Below, one piece after another: positions 55,622 to 63,152 of a DNA stretch of 64,000 nucleotides. Below the pieces are notes generated by a model. It saw only the letters and a program-made list of their open reading frames with translations, was not told where the DNA came from and did no database searches. Both the position numbers and the translations under genes were made by a program. The stretch's first letter is position 1, and each line of letters opens with the position of its first letter. The DNA is from Synechococcus sp. CC9902 (GTDB lineage Bacteria; Cyanobacteriota; Cyanobacteriia; PCC-6307; Cyanobiaceae): the NCBI RefSeq assembly GCF_000012505.1, contig NC_007513.1, positions 1,240,001 to 1,304,000 on the forward strand, read 5' to 3'.

Positions 55622-56896
55622 CTAGATCTGCTTTGGAACAACCCCTAAATCAAGGAGTTGTTGATCGATCGAACCCAGAAATTCCCAACTACCGGTGCTG
55701 GGAGCCCAATCGCGTTGGGTTAATTGGCCGCGTAGTTCTTGGATGCGCTCAGGGGTGAAACTGAGCGGAGCGCTGTAGTGGGCGGGTACCAGCCAACGCA
55801 GTTCAGAACGTTGCGACAGTTGATCCAACCAAGCCAAAAGCGTGGCCCGAGCCCGCGGCAACACCAATCGCTCGAGCACCGGCGCCACCTGAAGGTGGGG
55901 TTCCTGCTCCCCCATCAACGCGTTGGCAGCCGAACGCCAATCGGGCTCCCATTGGAACGGATACAGGCCGAAATGGGTGCGGGCGGAACGCAAGCCAGGC
56001 TTCATCGCATGGCGTAAAACATTCGCAATCGAGGGAACCACCAAGGGTTCGGGCCTCAAATAGGAGGCAAACAACACCAATCGAGCCCAGCCCCGGCGAC
56101 GGGCCTCCGGGCTGTCGGCCAAGGGTTCATCGCCCCGCTCGCGGGAATGAAACAACAAGGGGGTTGGATCTCGATCGAAAATGGCGGGTGGGTTGGCCGC
56201 GATGCCAACCAATGCATCCGTCACCACCAGGGCAGCGGACGGGCGGTGCAAACAACTGATCTCCTGAAAGCGACCCACGCCGAGGTCCAGTGGTCCCAGC
56301 GAAATCCAATCGCAAACGTCGGGGTGGGGAACACCATCATCGAGAAGCACTCGAGTTCGTCCCGCAGGAATGCCAAGCCAACTCAGCGGAAGTTGCACCG
56401 GAAAACTCCACTGCCCGGGGCACACCCAAAGCTCGGCCTTTGGGAACGCACGCGCCAGCGCCGGCAACGGCAATTTGTGCTCCAAACCAGAAGCGGTGGG
56501 CAGCACAATCGTGCAGACGAGACCATGCTCGACTTCGAGCTCTCTGATGGCGGCGCATAACTCCGCCGTGGGGGGCAAAGGGTTGATCAACATCAATCCG
56601 CCTGGCACCTTCACCACGGTGAGTCGGATCGGCACAGCCACGTAATAAACGCCCTGGAGCTGCTCAAAGCTCCACACCTGGCCTGGGATCAGCTCTTCAA
56701 CATGGGTGGCTCGCTTGCCGTAGGGATACAGCGGCAGCAGCGGCCACCAAGGCCAGCGCTGATCTGCCCTTGTCAATGAACCGGGTTGAGGCACAGACAC
56801 CCTCGGATCTCTCCAATTCTCCCGCAGGCTCCAAACCATCCGACTGGGCCATGCCCCTGACCATGGAGACAGGCTTGGTTCACCAGCGACACCCAT
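55622..56896 (-). CDS. DUF4336-domain protein (metallo-beta-lactamase-like fold)
   Basis: 424 residues from ATG 56896; ATG 56839 (MVWSLRENWRDPR) is an alternative. The segment YPYGKRATHVEELIPGQVWSFEQLQGVYYVAVPIRLTVVKVPGGLMLINPLPPTAELCAAIRELE resembles the N-terminal strands of DUF4336, a family related to metallo-beta-lactamases, though HxHxDH is not visible and the metal site seems absent. Middle: LVVTDALVGIAANPPAIF. It follows the PKS gene by 21 bases, so it could be the last member of that cluster. Confidence 0.7.
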   Translation of the reverse strand: MGVAGEPSLSPWSGAWPSRMVWSLRENWRDPRVSVPQPGSLTRADQRWPWWPLLPLYPYGKRATHVEELIPGQVWSFEQLQGVYYVAVPIRLTVVKVPGGLMLINPLPPTAELCAAIRELEVEHGLVCTIVLPTASGLEHKLPLPALARAFPKAELWVCPGQWSFPVQLPLSWLGIPAGRTRVLLDDGVPHPDVCDWISLGPLDLGVGRFQEISCLHRPSAALVVTDALVGIAANPPAIFDRDPTPLLFHSRERGDEPLADSPEARRRGWARLVLFASYLRPEPLVVPSIANVLRHAMKPGLRSARTHFGLYPFQWEPDWRSAANALMGEQEPHLQVAPVLERLVLPRARATLLAWLDQLSQRSELRWLVPAHYSAPLSFTPERIQELRGQLTQRDWAPSTGSWEFLGSIDQQLLDLGVVPKQI

Positions 56897-56917
56897 ATCA
56901 ACGTCATCAGATGAAAA

Positions 56918-58009
56918 TCACATTTGTCGATCAAAAAGCGCCACCTCGGCGGTCAGACCAGGGCCAAAGGCCAGTGCGAGACATGGTCCAGCAGTCGAGC
57001 GCCGACGCAACCGCTCAAGGATGAACAGGATTGTTGCCGACGACATGTTGCCGTGATCTTGGAGAACGGCTCTGGAATCGAGCAGTCGGTTCGGCTCCAG
57101 CGACAGAACCTCGGAACAGGTCGAAAGAATCCTGGGGCCACCGGGATGCACGGCCCAGGTAGTCACCGCCTCAAGCTCAATATCCACATCGTTGAGCCAA
57201 TCTCGCAGCCAAGGCAACAAGGCCGCTCCAACCGTTTCAGGAACGAGGGGCGACAAGCCCATTGCAAAACCGTGATCACCAATCTCCCAGTGCATGAGAT
57301 CTGCACTATTAGGAATCACCATCGAGCCACTGCGTCGCAACGCCAAAGACTGATGGACAGGGGAAGGATTGGCAGTGGCGACAACGGCAGCCGCCCCATC
57401 GGCAAACAAAGCATTCGCAACAACCTTCTCTGGGTGCCAGCCATAGGCCATATGGAGGCTGCAAAGCTCAACAGCGCAAAGCAGAACAACGGCCTTGGGA
57501 TCCATCTCGGCAAAGGCGTGGGCAACACGCAACCCATTCATGGCGCCATGGCATCCCATAAAACCGACGTGTGTGCGCTGAACACTCGGCGATAGCTGGA
57601 GCTGGTCCATCAAAAACAGATCAACACCAGGCGACTGAAAACCAGTACAACTGACGGTGACGAGGTGGGTAATCGTCGCTGATGAGATATCGCCATCGCT
57701 CAGCGCTTTTTCAGCGGCCTCAAGAGCCAATCCACCGGCGTAATCATCAAAAGCCTGCATCCGTTCGGCTGTACTAGGGCTTTCTGCGCCGTAGAAACTG
57801 AGACGCTCCTGGATCGTGGCATCGTCTGCATCCTTTTCGAGGAGCACACTTCCACGGCTGAGCACCTTGGTTTTCTGATAAATCCGCGACAACAGCCTTG
57901 TCTGCTCAGGGGTTTCAGCATTGATCCGATGCGCCACTTGCACCGCGTCTGTCTGGCTCAGTCGCCGAGTTGGCACCGCCGTACCAATGCCGTGAAGGAT
58001 GAGAGGCAT
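56918..58009 (-). CDS. Type III polyketide synthase (chalcone/stilbene synthase family)
   Basis: 363 residues. The Cys-His-Asn triad is intact: Cys153 in VGFMGCHGAMNG, His288 in WAVHPGGPRIL, Asn321 in DHGNMSSATILF. The GFGPG-like loop near the C-terminus reads LAFGPGLTAEVALF. Such enzymes extend an acyl-CoA with malonyl units to make pyrones, resorcinols or phloroglucinols. It is preceded 3 bases upstream by the flavoprotein gene and then the methyltransferase gene, as in bacterial alkylresorcinol/quinone clusters. Which starter is used cannot be told. Confidence 0.93.
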   Translation of the reverse strand: MPLILHGIGTAVPTRRLSQTDAVQVAHRINAETPEQTRLLSRIYQKTKVLSRGSVLLEKDADDATIQERLSFYGAESPSTAERMQAFDDYAGGLALEAAEKALSDGDISSATITHLVTVSCTGFQSPGVDLFLMDQLQLSPSVQRTHVGFMGCHGAMNGLRVAHAFAEMDPKAVVLLCAVELCSLHMAYGWHPEKVVANALFADGAAAVVATANPSPVHQSLALRRSGSMVIPNSADLMHWEIGDHGFAMGLSPLVPETVGAALLPWLRDWLNDVDIELEAVTTWAVHPGGPRILSTCSEVLSLEPNRLLDSRAVLQDHGNMSSATILFILERLRRRSTAGPCLALAFGPGLTAEVALFDRQM

Positions 58010-58012
58010 GAA

Positions 58013-59158
58013 TTAGGAGCTCGCCATCAGGGGGGACACCTGATTGAGACTGCTAATCACGCGCTGCGGAATGGAAGGCCATTGGCACCCGATGCTGAAC
58101 AACGCATTTGTCGTGAGCGGTTGTCGTAACAACGTCGACAACACACTGCAAACACGTTGACGGCTGATCGTCAGATCCACCAACCGCCTTTGCCAGCGCC
58201 GCTCGAGATCCGCTGACCATTCCCCCTGAGCCTCCTCCACAAATGGAGCAACCGCCGCCCCAGCAGCAAGAGCCCAGGCCATGCCCTCACCGGTGAACGG
58301 CTCCACGTAACCGGTCGCGTCGCCAAGCAACAAAAAGCGATCTCCTGCGAACAAACCAGCCCGACGGGTGAGTGCAGGAGTTAATTGCCAACGAGACGAC
58401 TCCAAACTTCGCGGCAAGGGGAAGCCGGCTTGACTAAGAACCTCTTCTGCCGCCCGAGTCACACCGCCAGACGACTTGACCACAGCGCGGTCGAAAGCAG
58501 CAGCCAGGTTGAGAGCACCATCCTCACGTCGAACCAATCCGACATAGCCACGCTGGCCAATGGCCATGTGAATCGCCCCAGACGCATAAGAGCCGTTGTC
58601 ATCATCGATAAGGCAGCCTGCCCCAAGCCTCGATTGCGGCGTGCTCCTTGAGCTGGCCGCATGAGTTGGAGACATCACTTGGTGTTGCAGACCGGCCGCA
58701 ACGAGAACGACACGGGCCCTGATTCGTTTAACGGGTGCATCACCCGGCGGCCGTAATCGCACCATTCGCCCACCGGGAGTGATCTCCTCGAGCACTGCAC
58801 TGGTTTGAAAGCGCACTGATGCACCAGCAGCCTCAGCCGCGTCGACCAAAGCCTGATCGAAGCGCTCCCTCGAGAGTGCCCAACCGCCCGGCAACTCAAG
58901 GTTGAGCGACTTACCACTCCAACCAAGACGAAGTTGATCGAGGGGCACAGCACCTTGATCACGAAAGACGTTCGGGAGGCCTGAGGCTGTGAGTGCTGCT
59001 AAGGCATTGGCGTTAAAGCAGCAACCACAGACCTTCCAGCGGGGGAAGGAGCGTTTCTCAACGAGCAGAACTCTCAAGCCTCGACGTGCGCAATCAAAGG
59101 CAGCCAAGCCACCGGCAACTCCTGCCCCAATCACAATGACGTCCCAACTGTTCTGCAT
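58013..59158 (-). CDS. FAD-dependent oxidoreductase of the PKS cluster
   Basis: 381 residues. The N-terminal Rossmann motif VIVIGAGVAGGLAAFDCARRGLRVLLVEK is followed by RWKVCGCCFN, the Cys-rich segment of geranylgeranyl-reductase-like and halogenase-like flavoproteins, and GDRFLLLGDATGYVEPFTGEGMAWAL for FAD ribityl binding. It could hydroxylate or oxidise the polyketide product. The start ATG lies in the second copy of a 13-bp tandem duplication (59151-59176). The stop is 3 bases before the PKS start. Confidence 0.9.
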   Translation of the reverse strand: MQNSWDVIVIGAGVAGGLAAFDCARRGLRVLLVEKRSFPRWKVCGCCFNANALAALTASGLPNVFRDQGAVPLDQLRLGWSGKSLNLELPGGWALSRERFDQALVDAAEAAGASVRFQTSAVLEEITPGGRMVRLRPPGDAPVKRIRARVVLVAAGLQHQVMSPTHAASSRSTPQSRLGAGCLIDDDNGSYASGAIHMAIGQRGYVGLVRREDGALNLAAAFDRAVVKSSGGVTRAAEEVLSQAGFPLPRSLESSRWQLTPALTRRAGLFAGDRFLLLGDATGYVEPFTGEGMAWALAAGAAVAPFVEEAQGEWSADLERRWQRRLVDLTISRQRVCSVLSTLLRQPLTTNALFSIGCQWPSIPQRVISSLNQVSPLMASS

Positions 59159-59176
59159 CTCAGTTCTGCATCTCAG
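59151..59176. repeat. 13-bp exact tandem duplication at a gene junction
   Basis: TTCTGCATCTCAG occurs twice in direct succession (59151-59163 and 59164-59176). It spans the end of the methyltransferase gene and the start of the flavoprotein gene. On the minus strand each copy carries an ATG; the first gives only a three-codon frame (MQN stop), the second opens the flavoprotein gene. Confidence 0.95.
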
Positions 59177-59889
59177 TGGGGTTTCCAGCAGAGCCGATAA
59201 CGCTCAGGCCAGGTCCGTTCCAAACCAAAGTCGCGCAAACCAGCCTGAGAGGCGAGGTCAAGAATCTCCGTGGGAGTAAAAGCCGCCTTCACAGATATTG
59301 GGCCATCGTGATGCACCACCCAAGATCGGCTCAGCAGTCGCGTACCCATCCAAGCCAAGGAATAACCAAGACGGCTTCGGATCAGATCGTCAACAATCAC
59401 AAGTCGACGAGCCCTAGCTGCCATCCCTGTAAGGAGTCGAACCACATCGGGTGGATCGAGATGGTGAACAAAAAGTGTGCAGTACACCACGTCAAATTGT
59501 TTGGACCCAGACGCGTCAAGAGCATCGGCAACAAACACACCAACGTTGCTGTCTGACCTGGCCACATTGCGGCGGGCGATCCGCACCGCTTCAGGATTCA
59601 GATCGCAGGCTTGAACCGATATATCTAAATCGCGTTTTCGGGCGAGCGCAGCAAGTTCAATCGCCGTGTCACCTCCCCCGCAAGCCAGCTCCAGCACACT
59701 CAGCTGAGTCGATGGTGTCTCGTATGCGAGCGCCTCAACTTGACGAAAAAGCCCTGGCACGCAGCGACTGATTCCATTAATCCGACGAAGACCTTGAAGA
59801 GCGCGGTCATGCTCTGCAGGATCAAGCCCCGGCTGATCCATGACTTCGGGCCGCCGATCACGTTGCATCGAGGTCCAGCCCAACGACAT
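59173..59889 (-). CDS. SAM-dependent methyltransferase of the PKS cluster
   Basis: 238 residues from ATG 59889; ATG 59868 is an alternative. Motif I is VLELACGGGDTAIELAALARK, then VQACDLNPEAVRIARRNVAR, and FDVVYCTLFVHHLDPPDVVRLLTGMAARARRLVIVDDLIR. This is the class I fold with the VHHL loop of small-molecule O- or C-methyltransferases. First gene of the leftward methyltransferase-flavoprotein-PKS run, so its upstream region (59890-60112) should hold the cluster promoter, back to back with the metal-regulated operon. Confidence 0.9.
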   Translation of the reverse strand: MSLGWTSMQRDRRPEVMDQPGLDPAEHDRALQGLRRINGISRCVPGLFRQVEALAYETPSTQLSVLELACGGGDTAIELAALARKRDLDISVQACDLNPEAVRIARRNVARSDSNVGVFVADALDASGSKQFDVVYCTLFVHHLDPPDVVRLLTGMAARARRLVIVDDLIRSRLGYSLAWMGTRLLSRSWVVHHDGPISVKAAFTPTEILDLASQAGLRDFGLERTWPERYRLCWKPH

Positions 59890-60052
59890 ATGCCATCACT
59901 CTTGTGTGAACAACCTAAGTAGAACGGCATTGAGGCCGCAGGCTTTGTCGGAGCTGCCGGCAACGTCTATTGGAGGGGGCAAAGAACCTATTGCTCGGCA
60001 TTGCTGACCTGATCATTTGATTCAGCCGCAAGAATCATTTGAACAGCCATAC

Positions 60053-60067
60053 TGAGAATGATTCCCA
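60053..60067. promoter_or_regulatory. Candidate Zur/Fur-family operator
   Basis: TGAGAATGATTCCCA is a 7-1-7 imperfect inverted repeat (TGAGAAT / ATTCCCA, one mismatch) close to the cyanobacterial Zur-type pattern TGANAATNATTNTCA. It ends 45 bases before the start of the CobW-like gene. A direct repeat ATCATTTGA (60012 and 60034) lies just upstream. Specificity for zinc versus iron cannot be decided by eye. Confidence 0.55.
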
Positions 60068-60112
60068 CTCCGGCCTAGCCCTGGGGCGGAGCGCCGACTG
60101 AAGCCTTTCACG

Positions 60113-60895
60113 ATGCAGCAGACCTGGTTGATCACGGGCCCACCTGGCTGCGGAAAAACCAATTGGATCCGCGAAACCCTGCTGAACCACGGGGGTGCCT
60201 GCGCTTATCTGCGACTCGACGGGGCGGCCCATGAAGAGTTGGGGCTGGGCCATAACGCAGGCATCGACCAAGGCTGGTTGATGGACCAGATTCCCCAGCT
60301 GGAGGATTGGTCTGGCTCAGCCCCCAGTTCATCGGTGCCTTCAGACGATCGTCTCGTGCTGATTGAGGCCCAACAGTTTTCTTCGTCAACTCAGAGCGGA
60401 GACGGACTTGATCCGCAAATCAAGCAGCAGCTGCAGCGGTTCAACCTCACGCCAGATCGAACGCTGCATTTCGGCATCGATCCAGACCTACCCAAACAGG
60501 ACACGCTGGACTTCACCGAGCTCGAAGCCTGGCACCTCGCGCTTCAGGGTTGCGTCTGGGATCCGAACAGCCTCAGCAGCTTCTGGTTCGAGTTGGTGAA
60601 CGGCGCCTATGGGGACGTGTATCGCGCCAAGGCCCTGATGAACATGCCGGATGGGCGCTCTTTTTTCTGCAACTGGATGGTGAGCCAATCGGGGTCTCAA
60701 TTTCTTCCTTTACAGGCGGTAGCGACGCCCACCGGCAGGCCCAATGGTCTATCCCACCTCGTGATCCAGGGAAAGGGCCTGATTCCCACAGGGATCGAAA
60801 GCACAATCCAGGATTGCCTACTGAGCGACGACGTGTTGGAGCTTCAACAGGCCCCGCTGCGCGACCAACAACCCAATCTTCAACCCACTCTTTAA
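60113..60895 (+). CDS. CobW/COG0523-like P-loop protein lacking the Cys metal motif
   Basis: 260 residues, short for COG0523 (about 320). Walker A is WLITGPPGCGKTNWI (Lys15, Thr16); RLVLIEAQQF (about residue 83) resembles the Walker B/Glu segment of CobW. The C-terminal part FWFELVNGAYGDVYRAKALMNMPDGRSFFCNWM resembles the CobW C-terminal domain, which begins with a similar GDVYRAKG pattern. The CxCC metal-transfer motif and the guanine-specific NKxD are missing. The gene lies behind a Zur/Fur-like box, which fits a metal-linked role. It is followed 15 bases later by the phosphoesterase-like genes. Confidence 0.75.
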   Translation: MQQTWLITGPPGCGKTNWIRETLLNHGGACAYLRLDGAAHEELGLGHNAGIDQGWLMDQIPQLEDWSGSAPSSSVPSDDRLVLIEAQQFSSSTQSGDGLDPQIKQQLQRFNLTPDRTLHFGIDPDLPKQDTLDFTELEAWHLALQGCVWDPNSLSSFWFELVNGAYGDVYRAKALMNMPDGRSFFCNWMVSQSGSQFLPLQAVATPTGRPNGLSHLVIQGKGLIPTGIESTIQDCLLSDDVLELQQAPLRDQQPNLQPTL

Positions 60896-60910
60896 TCCCC
60901 CTGTTTGACG

Positions 60911-61726
60911 ATGGCCCACGCCGTGATCTCCTGCCTGCATGCCAACCTCGCGGCGTTCGAAGCCGTGCTGGACGACATCGACCAACAAGGCATCACAACC
61001 ATCACATGCCTCGGCGACCTGGTTGGCTATGGCCCCCAGCCCAATGAAGTGGTGGAACTCGTGCAGCAGCGCGCCATCCCCACCTGCCAAGGCTGCTGGG
61101 ATGAAGACATCATTGATGGCCTCAACGCCTGTGAATGCAGCTATCCCTCACAGTTGGCCGAACGGCGGGGCCATCAAGCCCATCACTGGACAGCGGACCG
61201 TTTAACGGACAACAACAAAGCATTCCTGGCGACATTGCCGATCACCCTGCGTAGGGACAAGTTGCTGTTCGTACACGGAAGTCCGAATAGCCAGCACGAG
61301 TATTTGCTGCCCGACATGAATGCTTTTGCCGCATTGGAGCGGGTGGAAACGGCAGGAGCTGAAACGTTGTTCTGTGGTCATACCCATCAGCCCTATGTGC
61401 GGGAACTCAGCGGTGGTTCAATCCGCGTCAGCGTGCAGCAACGCGGCAATGGGCCCGCGACTGAACAGGAGATGACACTGCCGATGCGCCGCATCGTGAA
61501 TGCTGGCTCCGTCGGAGAACCCAGGCACGGCACGACCAAGGCCACCTACGTCGTCCATGACGACAACACGGGCAACGTAAGCATTCGCGAGGTGGACTAT
61601 GACGTGGCCAAAACCTGCAGGGCGATTGTGGAGGCGGGATTGCCCGACGTGTTTGCCTGGCGACTGAGCCATGGATTCGAATATGCCGAGCGCGCCGAAG
61701 ATGCCAGCCACGTGTGCGAGCGATGA
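60911..61726 (+). CDS. Metallophosphoesterase with Cys at two ligand positions
   Basis: 271 residues from ATG 60911 (MAHAVISCLHAN). The family pattern D-x-H...GD...GNH...H...GHxH is recognisable: SCLHAN at motif I with Cys8 in place of the Asp but His10 kept, CLGDLVGYGP at motif II with Asp36, QGCWDE at motif III with Cys62 where Asn is usual, FVHGSP at motif IV and FCGHTHQPYV at motif V. A NAGSVGEPRHG loop follows. The gene start (MAHAV) follows the CobW-like stop after 15 bases, and its stop overlaps the next start by 4. Confidence 0.8.
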   Translation: MAHAVISCLHANLAAFEAVLDDIDQQGITTITCLGDLVGYGPQPNEVVELVQQRAIPTCQGCWDEDIIDGLNACECSYPSQLAERRGHQAHHWTADRLTDNNKAFLATLPITLRRDKLLFVHGSPNSQHEYLLPDMNAFAALERVETAGAETLFCGHTHQPYVRELSGGSIRVSVQQRGNGPATEQEMTLPMRRIVNAGSVGEPRHGTTKATYVVHDDNTGNVSIREVDYDVAKTCRAIVEAGLPDVFAWRLSHGFEYAERAEDASHVCER

Positions 61727-62436
61727 TGGAACGCTGGGCCCTAGTGAGTGGACTGCGTGGGGATCTTGATCTCTACGAGCAGATCCAAGCCGACATAAAA
61801 AAACAGCGCGGCGCGGCACATTTATTTGTGTTGGGCGACATGATCAGTCCTGATCGCAACTGCGACGCGCTATTAACACGATTACGCCGACCCAAGCGCG
61901 GTGATCTACAGCCCAATTGCATTTATGGATGGTGGGAAGAGCAACTACTGGTCGACTACGGCTACCGCGGTGACCAAAAGGCAGAGGTTCGATCCGATCC
62001 TGACGGTGCAACCACGAAGCACCAGCTGCGTGAAGCCGTAAGCAAGGAGCACATCAACTGGCTGGCATCGCTGCAGTTCGGCTTCATCGAACTGGACTGT
62101 GGACTGATCCATGGCAGCTCAGCTGATGTTGGTGATCCGTTGAAAGAAACCACCTCGCCCTTGATCCTTTTGGATCGACTAACACGCCTGGATGTGAACC
62201 GACTGTTCACCGCTCGCAGTGGCCAGCAATTCCGATTGCAACTCACAGGGGGCCAAATTCAGTCCAAAGTGAAAGATCCCAGAAGCGAACAACAACGCGA
62301 ACAAGCAGTGCCCAAACGCAGTGTGATCGGAATCGGATCTGGAGAGAATTACACCTTGTATGACCCGGCCAGCGATCGTGTTGAATTTCTCAGCGCTGCC
62401 CTGAGATCACGACTAACGAACCTTGGCTTTGGCTGA
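61723..62436 (+). CDS. Degenerate phosphoesterase-like protein
   Basis: 237 residues from ATG 61723, whose last two bases are the start of the previous stop (ATGA). The outline of the phosphoesterase fold persists, with VSGLRGDLDLYEQ at motif I (Asp and His replaced by Gly and Arg), FVLGDMISPD at motif II, IYGWWEEQ at motif III and LIHGSS at motif IV, but no GHxH motif. It is probably a non-catalytic partner or paralogue of the preceding protein. The C-terminal half (SVIGIGSGENYTLYDPASDRVEFL) is distinct. Confidence 0.7.
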   Translation: MMERWALVSGLRGDLDLYEQIQADIKKQRGAAHLFVLGDMISPDRNCDALLTRLRRPKRGDLQPNCIYGWWEEQLLVDYGYRGDQKAEVRSDPDGATTKHQLREAVSKEHINWLASLQFGFIELDCGLIHGSSADVGDPLKETTSPLILLDRLTRLDVNRLFTARSGQQFRLQLTGGQIQSKVKDPRSEQQREQAVPKRSVIGIGSGENYTLYDPASDRVEFLSAALRSRLTNLGFG

Positions 62437-62468: not shown

Positions 62469-63152
62469 CTAGGCGCAACGATCTTCTAATCGCGAAACAT
62501 TCCAACCGATTGGCATCGGAATGACTTTCCGATGCGGCATCAGTAATTCGATCTCATCACAAGCTTTCGAATAGGCATAAAACCCAGACATTCGTCGCCG
62601 ATCAGAGCGTCCATTTTTTGTAACGGCACGATCAACAGTGACACCCTCCGTTTCCGCATTTTCAAACGCATTTAAGAGCGGGATTTCCGTGCGAAGAACC
62701 TCAATATCAAAGCCCTCCAAGATTTCTCTAGCGATTTGAATGGATGATTTTTTCCTTGTATCGGCCTTCACGATGAGTGCTGCATAAGGGATATCGAACT
62801 TATTCAGCATGCATGCCATTTCAACAGTGAGCTCAATGGATCGGCTTTGTGCAGTCGTCGGAAGAACAATAAAGTCCGAACCCTCAACTAAATTCTTCAG
62901 CTCTTCTTCGTTGCTACTGGCCTGACCATCCGTCACCACAATATCGGCACTTCTTGTTGCTTTTGCCGCTGCCTCCATCGGAACAACTGCATAAGGAAGC
63001 AAACCTCTTGAGGCATAGGCGGTGGCTGATCGATTCCGATCCGCATCAACCAGGACAACCGACCGGCCAGCATTCGCCCAATGCGCTGCAAGGTGAATGC
63101 TGGTACAGGTTTTAGCTACGCCACCTTTTTGCCCAAAAGTTGTGACAAACAC
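62469..63152 (-). CDS. ParA-family ATPase, orphan
   Basis: 227 residues. The deviant Walker A is TFGQKGGVAKTCTSIHLAAH (KGGVAKT, Lys9 and Lys14), followed by VVLVDADRNRSATAYASRG (Walker A' Asp), IVVTDGQASSNEEELKNLVEGSDFIVLPTTAQSRSIELTVEMACML and IVKADTRKKSSIQIAREILEGF. No parB gene or obvious parS site is nearby. Such orphans position plasmids, carboxysomes or other cargo, or work in other regulation. The C-terminus (PHRKVIPMPIGWNVSRLEDRCA) is unusual. It faces the previous gene with a 32-base convergent gap. Confidence 0.88.
   Translation of the reverse strand: MFVTTFGQKGGVAKTCTSIHLAAHWANAGRSVVLVDADRNRSATAYASRGLLPYAVVPMEAAAKATRSADIVVTDGQASSNEEELKNLVEGSDFIVLPTTAQSRSIELTVEMACMLNKFDIPYAALIVKADTRKKSSIQIAREILEGFDIEVLRTEIPLLNAFENAETEGVTVDRAVTKNGRSDRRRMSGFYAYSKACDEIELLMPHRKVIPMPIGWNVSRLEDRCA

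Follow-up and report, generated by a model that had tools for sequence, protein, structure and literature searches.

The minus strand of Synechococcus sp. CC9902 carries a type III polyketide synthase (PKS) gene in tight succession with genes for a methyltransferase and a FAD oxidoreductase, which raises the question of what these three enzymes may produce together and whether their product belongs to a known class. The locus was analyzed within a stretch of 64,000 nucleotides of contig NC_007513.1 (positions 1,240,001 to 1,304,000, assembly GCF_000012505.1), here called the window, and all coordinates refer to this stretch. Based on the gene order, the placement of the PKS among its relatives and the key residues of this enzyme, we consider it highly probable (about 0.87) that 56918-59889 represents a hidABC-type (hierridin) operon, which would direct the synthesis of a hierridin B-like methoxylated alkylphenol or hydroquinone lipid. 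The cluster is already known in kind and does not represent a new pathway.

Organization of the locus

In the direction of transcription on the minus strand, the methyltransferase gene is followed by the genes for the FAD oxidoreductase, the type III PKS and a DUF4336 protein, with 14, 3 and 21 bases, respectively, between the open reading frames (Table 1). The open frames together with the Pfam and NCBIfam families bear out an earlier note on this DNA, which had placed the first three genes on one strand, 14 and 3 bases apart. The HidA-type methyltransferase scores 311.9 bits against the NCBIfam model PRK06202 (cut-off 243) and has the SAM motif ELACGGG at residues 67-73. Each of the 33 hid-type operons read in regions of the same family has a HidA homologue in this position. 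The PKS is the sole match to Chal_sti_synt_C in the 2.23 Mb single-contig genome.

The promoter of the operon is presumably located in the divergent intergenic region upstream of hidA. No match to the sigma-70 consensus was found in this region, and a promoter and terminator scan at the hid locus gave no more matches than expected by chance.

Table 1. Features of the hid-type locus and of its neighbourhood (window coordinates)
Feature	Position	Strand	Basis
hidA-type SAM-dependent methyltransferase, 238 aa, first operon gene	59173..59889	-	Methyltransf_25 4.8e-15
hidB-type FAD oxidoreductase, 381 aa, probable aromatic-ring monooxygenase	58013..59158	-	DAO; FAD_binding_3 1.7e-11
hidC-type type III PKS, 363 aa, predicted long-chain alkylresorcinol synthase	56918..58009	-	Chal_sti_synt_N/C 2e-27, 1.4e-23
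Catalytic Cys153 codon (CHS Cys164)	57551..57553	-	alignment
Catalytic His288 codon (CHS His303)	57146..57148	-	alignment
Catalytic Asn321 codon (CHS Asn336)	57047..57049	-	alignment
Trp241 codon, at CHS Gly256 position, equated with ArsB Trp281 (resorcinol-type cyclisation)	57287..57289	-	alignment
Met250 codon, at CHS Phe265 gatekeeper position	57260..57262	-	alignment
DUF4336 gene, 424 aa, neighbour outside the cluster	55622..56896	-	DUF4336 6e-116
Divergent intergenic region, 223 bases, between hidA and the plus-strand gene 60113-60895	59890..60112	.	gene layout

Relation to described systems

In Streptomyces griseus, the same three enzyme classes form methoxylated alkylbenzoquinones, and in mycobacteria they form polyketide quinones. 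Like the window locus, the srs operon of Streptomyces griseus and the mycobacterial PkQ system combine a PKS with a methyltransferase and a flavoprotein; in these actinobacterial systems the enzymes act on an alkylresorcinol, and the comparison with them is one of enzyme classes and gene order. The earlier note had compared the locus with srs, and the set of PKS, methyltransferase and flavoprotein is indeed shared. The srs operon has the PKS gene first; at the window locus, the methyltransferase gene precedes the FAD oxidoreductase and PKS genes.

The closest described system is instead cyanobacterial and has the same gene order as the window. It is the hierridin operon hidABC of Cyanobium sp. 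LEGE 06113, in which HidA is the methyltransferase, HidB the oxidoreductase and HidC the PKS (PMC8086630). The hierridin genes of this strain were assigned by Costa et al. (2019, J Nat Prod 82:393), as related in PMC8086630 and PMC10896814. The window shares with LEGE 06113 the three enzyme classes, their order and the Met gatekeeper of the HidC clade, a likeness established from the published order, residues and PKS clade. Products of an orthologous cluster, which the earlier note had named as a finding that would count against its reading, have already been described in the same family, namely hierridins B and C from Cyanobium. Clusters of the hidABC type are reported to be common in Prochlorococcus and Synechococcus (PMC8086630), and a hierridin B region is annotated in another picocyanobacterium, Synechococcus sp. 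LA31.

Beyond the cyanobacteria, a hidABC-type operon has been reported in Planctomycetota (PMC10896814). In Gimesia maris and Rhodopirellula baltica the gene order is that of the window, and in a Gimesia sp. locus (L121) the PKS, methyltransferase and FAD oxidoreductase are 48%, 46% and 41% identical to their counterparts in the window. Planctomycete PKSs that cluster with HidC yielded pentadecyl- and heptadecylresorcinols, i.e. C15 and C17 alkylresorcinols, upon expression in C. glutamicum (PMC10896814). These operons differ from the window in belonging to another phylum and in the outcome of their tailoring pair, since the methyltransferase and oxidoreductase of Gimesia maris, when expressed together, brought about a single, apparently carbon-linked methylation with no hydroxylation reported, and the role of the oxidoreductase was left open (PMC10896814). 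The tailoring steps that we propose below are for this reason tentative.

The locus could be read as a functional polyketide-quinone operon of the srs or PkQ type, whose product would be an alkyl-benzoquinone acting as an electron carrier in the membrane, not a hierridin-like phenol ether. The precedents in Streptomyces griseus and mycobacteria speak for this possibility, as does the fact that a hydroxylated, singly O-methylated resorcinol would be a readily oxidised hydroquinone. We nevertheless regard it as unlikely: the gene order differs from the PKS-first order of srs, and a cyanobacterial operon with the order found here has been linked to hierridins. A search of 300 genomes of the family detected PKS homologues in 101, including 10 of the 24 of the same genus. 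The lack of a detectable PKS in the other 14 argues against a general respiratory role.

Active site and predicted product type of the PKS

Alignment with alfalfa CHS2, which served as the reference for residue numbering and whose sequence was checked against PDB 1bi5, confirmed that the Cys153/His288/Asn321 triad described in the earlier note is intact and matches Cys164/His303/Asn336. The column of ArsB Trp281 and ArsC Gly284 is, on our assumption, the CHS Gly256 position, which is occupied by Trp241 in the window PKS. ArsB of Azotobacter vinelandii is a type III PKS that forms alkylresorcinols and, like the window PKS, has Trp at the position that determines cyclisation; in contrast to the window locus, it operates with fatty-acid synthases and is not known to act with such a methyltransferase-FAD oxidoreductase pair. 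ArsB with Trp281 forms alkylresorcinols and ArsC with Gly284 alkylpyrones, and an exchange of this residue shifts the product (PMC6274091). For the HidC clade, Met has been reported at the Phe265 gatekeeper position (PMC8086630). Together, Trp241 and Met250 predict, at the level of sequence, that the PKS forms a long-chain 5-alkylresorcinol. Both residues are also common to most of the non-hid PKSs in the aligned set; they therefore predict the type of product and do not prove membership in the hid group. For the same reason the Met gatekeeper, present in most other PKSs of the set, was rejected as a hid-specific marker.

The predicted structure of the PKS (pLDDT 88) matches the fold of PKS18 best, with a TM score of 0.89, and PKS18 is also the best solved-structure match by single sequence. 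This resemblance would be compatible with an alkylpyrone synthase of the PKS18 or ArsC type, with the flanking genes serving to decorate a pyrone, and for one Prochlorococcus enzyme, whose cavity is large, a pyrone product has been proposed (PMC8086630). Several observations make such an activity very unlikely, namely Trp241 at the position that steers the product in ArsB and ArsC, Trp towards resorcinols and Gly towards pyrones, the presence of Leu and Cys in PKS18 in place of Trp241 and Met250, and the resorcinols obtained from the expressed relatives that cluster with HidC.

The clade of the window PKS has Ser at the CHS Met137 cavity position (residue 126, 57630-57632); with few exceptions, the remaining hid-type PKSs of the family have Ala there. 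The Ser might influence the choice of substrate.

The HidB-type flavoprotein

The earlier note had likened the flavoprotein to geranylgeranyl reductases, as opposed to classic hydroxylases. This holds in so far as GG-red-SF (TIGR02032) is its best NCBIfam model; the score of 112 bits falls below the cut-off of 158.8, and the folds closest to the structural model (pLDDT 88) are those of FasV, RadH, PqsL and Bmp2, i.e. of flavin halogenases and monooxygenases, the latter including aromatic ones. Geranylgeranyl reductases carry the motif (Y/F)xWxFP and flavin halogenases the motifs WxWxIP and FxPxSxG; a search of the HidB sequence for these found none of the three. A function as geranylgeranyl reductase was rejected in view of the score and the missing motif. 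A halogenase, which would offer an explanation for the chlorinated hierridin C, was likewise rejected, as both motifs are absent despite the close fold.

Classic group A aromatic hydroxylases are characterized by the motifs GxGxxG, DG and GD. The HidB-type protein contains GAGVAG at residues 11-16 and GDATGYVEPFTGEG; GxGxxG and GD are present, and the DG position reads AAG, ATG or ASG in the hid-type sequences aligned. We regard HidB as a probable aromatic-ring monooxygenase.

Conservation of the operon

The earlier note had named the gene order in marine genomes as a point to be surveyed. In 33 of the 40 larger regions of the family that were read, the three genes lie on one strand in the order A-B-C, and these are all the regions with a hid-type PKS (33/33); the remaining seven contain more distant PKSs with different or no A/B-type neighbours. 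Counted with mechanically picked start codons, the B and C frames share 10 bases in 20 of these 33 hid-type operons, which suggests that their translation may be coupled. The identity of the window PKS to hid-type PKSs from other genera of the family is about 53-76%.

In the PKS tree, all 73 sequences from loci of A-B-C order and three others form a group of 76 (SH-aLRT 99) that includes the window PKS. The HidA (a quick tree), HidB and HidC trees are broadly congruent, and the three genes therefore travel together. Among the best 80 relatives on GTDB contigs, from which the named relatives are drawn and which do not comprise LEGE 06113, the A-B-C arrangement also occurs in Planctomycetota, some Acidobacteria, Omnitrophota, one Gemmatimonadetes MAG and one Halomonas. 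Within the PKS clade of the window, the A-B-C order holds for nearly every locus in this set, whether from planctomycetes, Acidobacteria or elsewhere; relatives from Bacteroidetes, Pseudanabaena and Thermosynechococcaceae show different arrangements. The three genes probably work together; that they are chance neighbours and not one operon, as the missing sigma-70 consensus upstream of hidA might be taken to indicate, is hardly conceivable given the gaps of 14 and 3 bases, the overlap of B and C in many operons and an order that is kept in several phyla.

The Halomonas strain, an unexpected host, has a full A-B-C operon (L141, 2035-5089) with a PKS 45% identical to that of the window. Some genomes of the family (G090 and G292; loci L053 and L066) encode a distant type III PKS, about 30% identical, without HidA or HidB neighbours; in G090 it accompanies a hid operon as a second copy.

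Genomic surroundings and possible mobility

The DUF4336 gene, mentioned in the earlier note as following the cluster, does adjoin it at 21 bases. All 19 near-complete genomes of the genus carry this gene, with or without hid. In the other genomes of the genus that have hid and in which both could be placed, the two are separated by about 5-19 kb, so that the close adjacency is peculiar to the window genome. A fourth cluster gene was accordingly rejected: DUF4336 is core to the genus, unlinked to hid elsewhere and outside the cluster.

In G147, a hid-less genome, the DUF4336 gene and the homologue of 60113-60895 are neighbours about 0.8 kb apart (L112), and the interval, which corresponds to 56896-60113 of the window, is apparently an empty hid site. 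DUF4336 adjoins homologues of window 60113-62436 in this genome (L112, 4187-8399). Other genomes of the genus differ greatly in the length of this interval, which looks like an insertion hotspot. Just past the hid region, a gene for a ParA-type partition ATPase (62469-63152) has a G+C content of 0.48, compared with a window mean of 0.57, and homologues of this ATPase are encoded upstream of DUF4336 in several genomes that lack hid.

The relationships of the hid proteins within the genus do not follow those of the core genes. In the draft genome G285 (L033; L077 was also compared) the hid proteins are 92-94% identical to those of the window and DUF4336 only 75%; in G089 the corresponding values are 92-93% and 95%. 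The comparison with G285 suggests that the whole hid operon may have been transferred recently between lineages of the genus, and the data are compatible with an operon that moves from lineage to lineage. Horizontal transfer of hid was also tested on another pair, G162 and G112; forcing these two together, as they stand in the core-gene tree, made no significant difference in the topology test (p-AU 0.124).

Proposed pathway

We propose that HidC would accept a long-chain fatty acyl thioester, probably C16 and perhaps in the range C14-C18, add three malonyl units and, by C2-C7 aldol closure and decarboxylation, release a 5-alkylresorcinol. A side chain of C15 would derive from a C16 starter, as the acyl carbonyl turns into a ring carbon. 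HidA would then methylate the ring, most likely on oxygen, and HidB would add a ring hydroxyl to give a hierridin B-like methoxylated alkylphenol or hydroquinone lipid. The absence from HidB of the DG motif of classic group A hydroxylases counts against the tailoring part of this proposal. A C14 starter is mentioned by Larsen et al. What the analysis establishes is the gene set in its order and conserved close spacing, an unbroken catalytic triad, Trp241 at the cyclisation position and the clade to which the PKS belongs; we infer that the genes are co-transcribed, how long the starter is, where and in what sequence the ring is methylated and hydroxylated, and which compound results.

It is distinctly unlikely that the product serves picocyanobacteria as a redox carrier of the polyketide quinone or hydroquinone kind, or as a protective membrane lipid, made with a DG-less flavoprotein that would work unlike classic single-component hydroxylases. 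The earlier note had postulated a small aromatic lipid or quinone; a lipid of the methylated alkylresorcinol or hydroquinone class is probable, and this structural class is known from the hierridins.

Conclusion

Overall, the hidABC-type assignment adds one more picocyanobacterial genome to the likely makers of hierridin-type phenolic lipids. The PKS was detected in 10 of the 24 genomes of the genus, and the operon is kept whole and apparently moves from one lineage to another. Such behaviour is more in keeping with an accessory trait, for example in defence, allelopathy or the adjustment of membranes, than with a housekeeping function.
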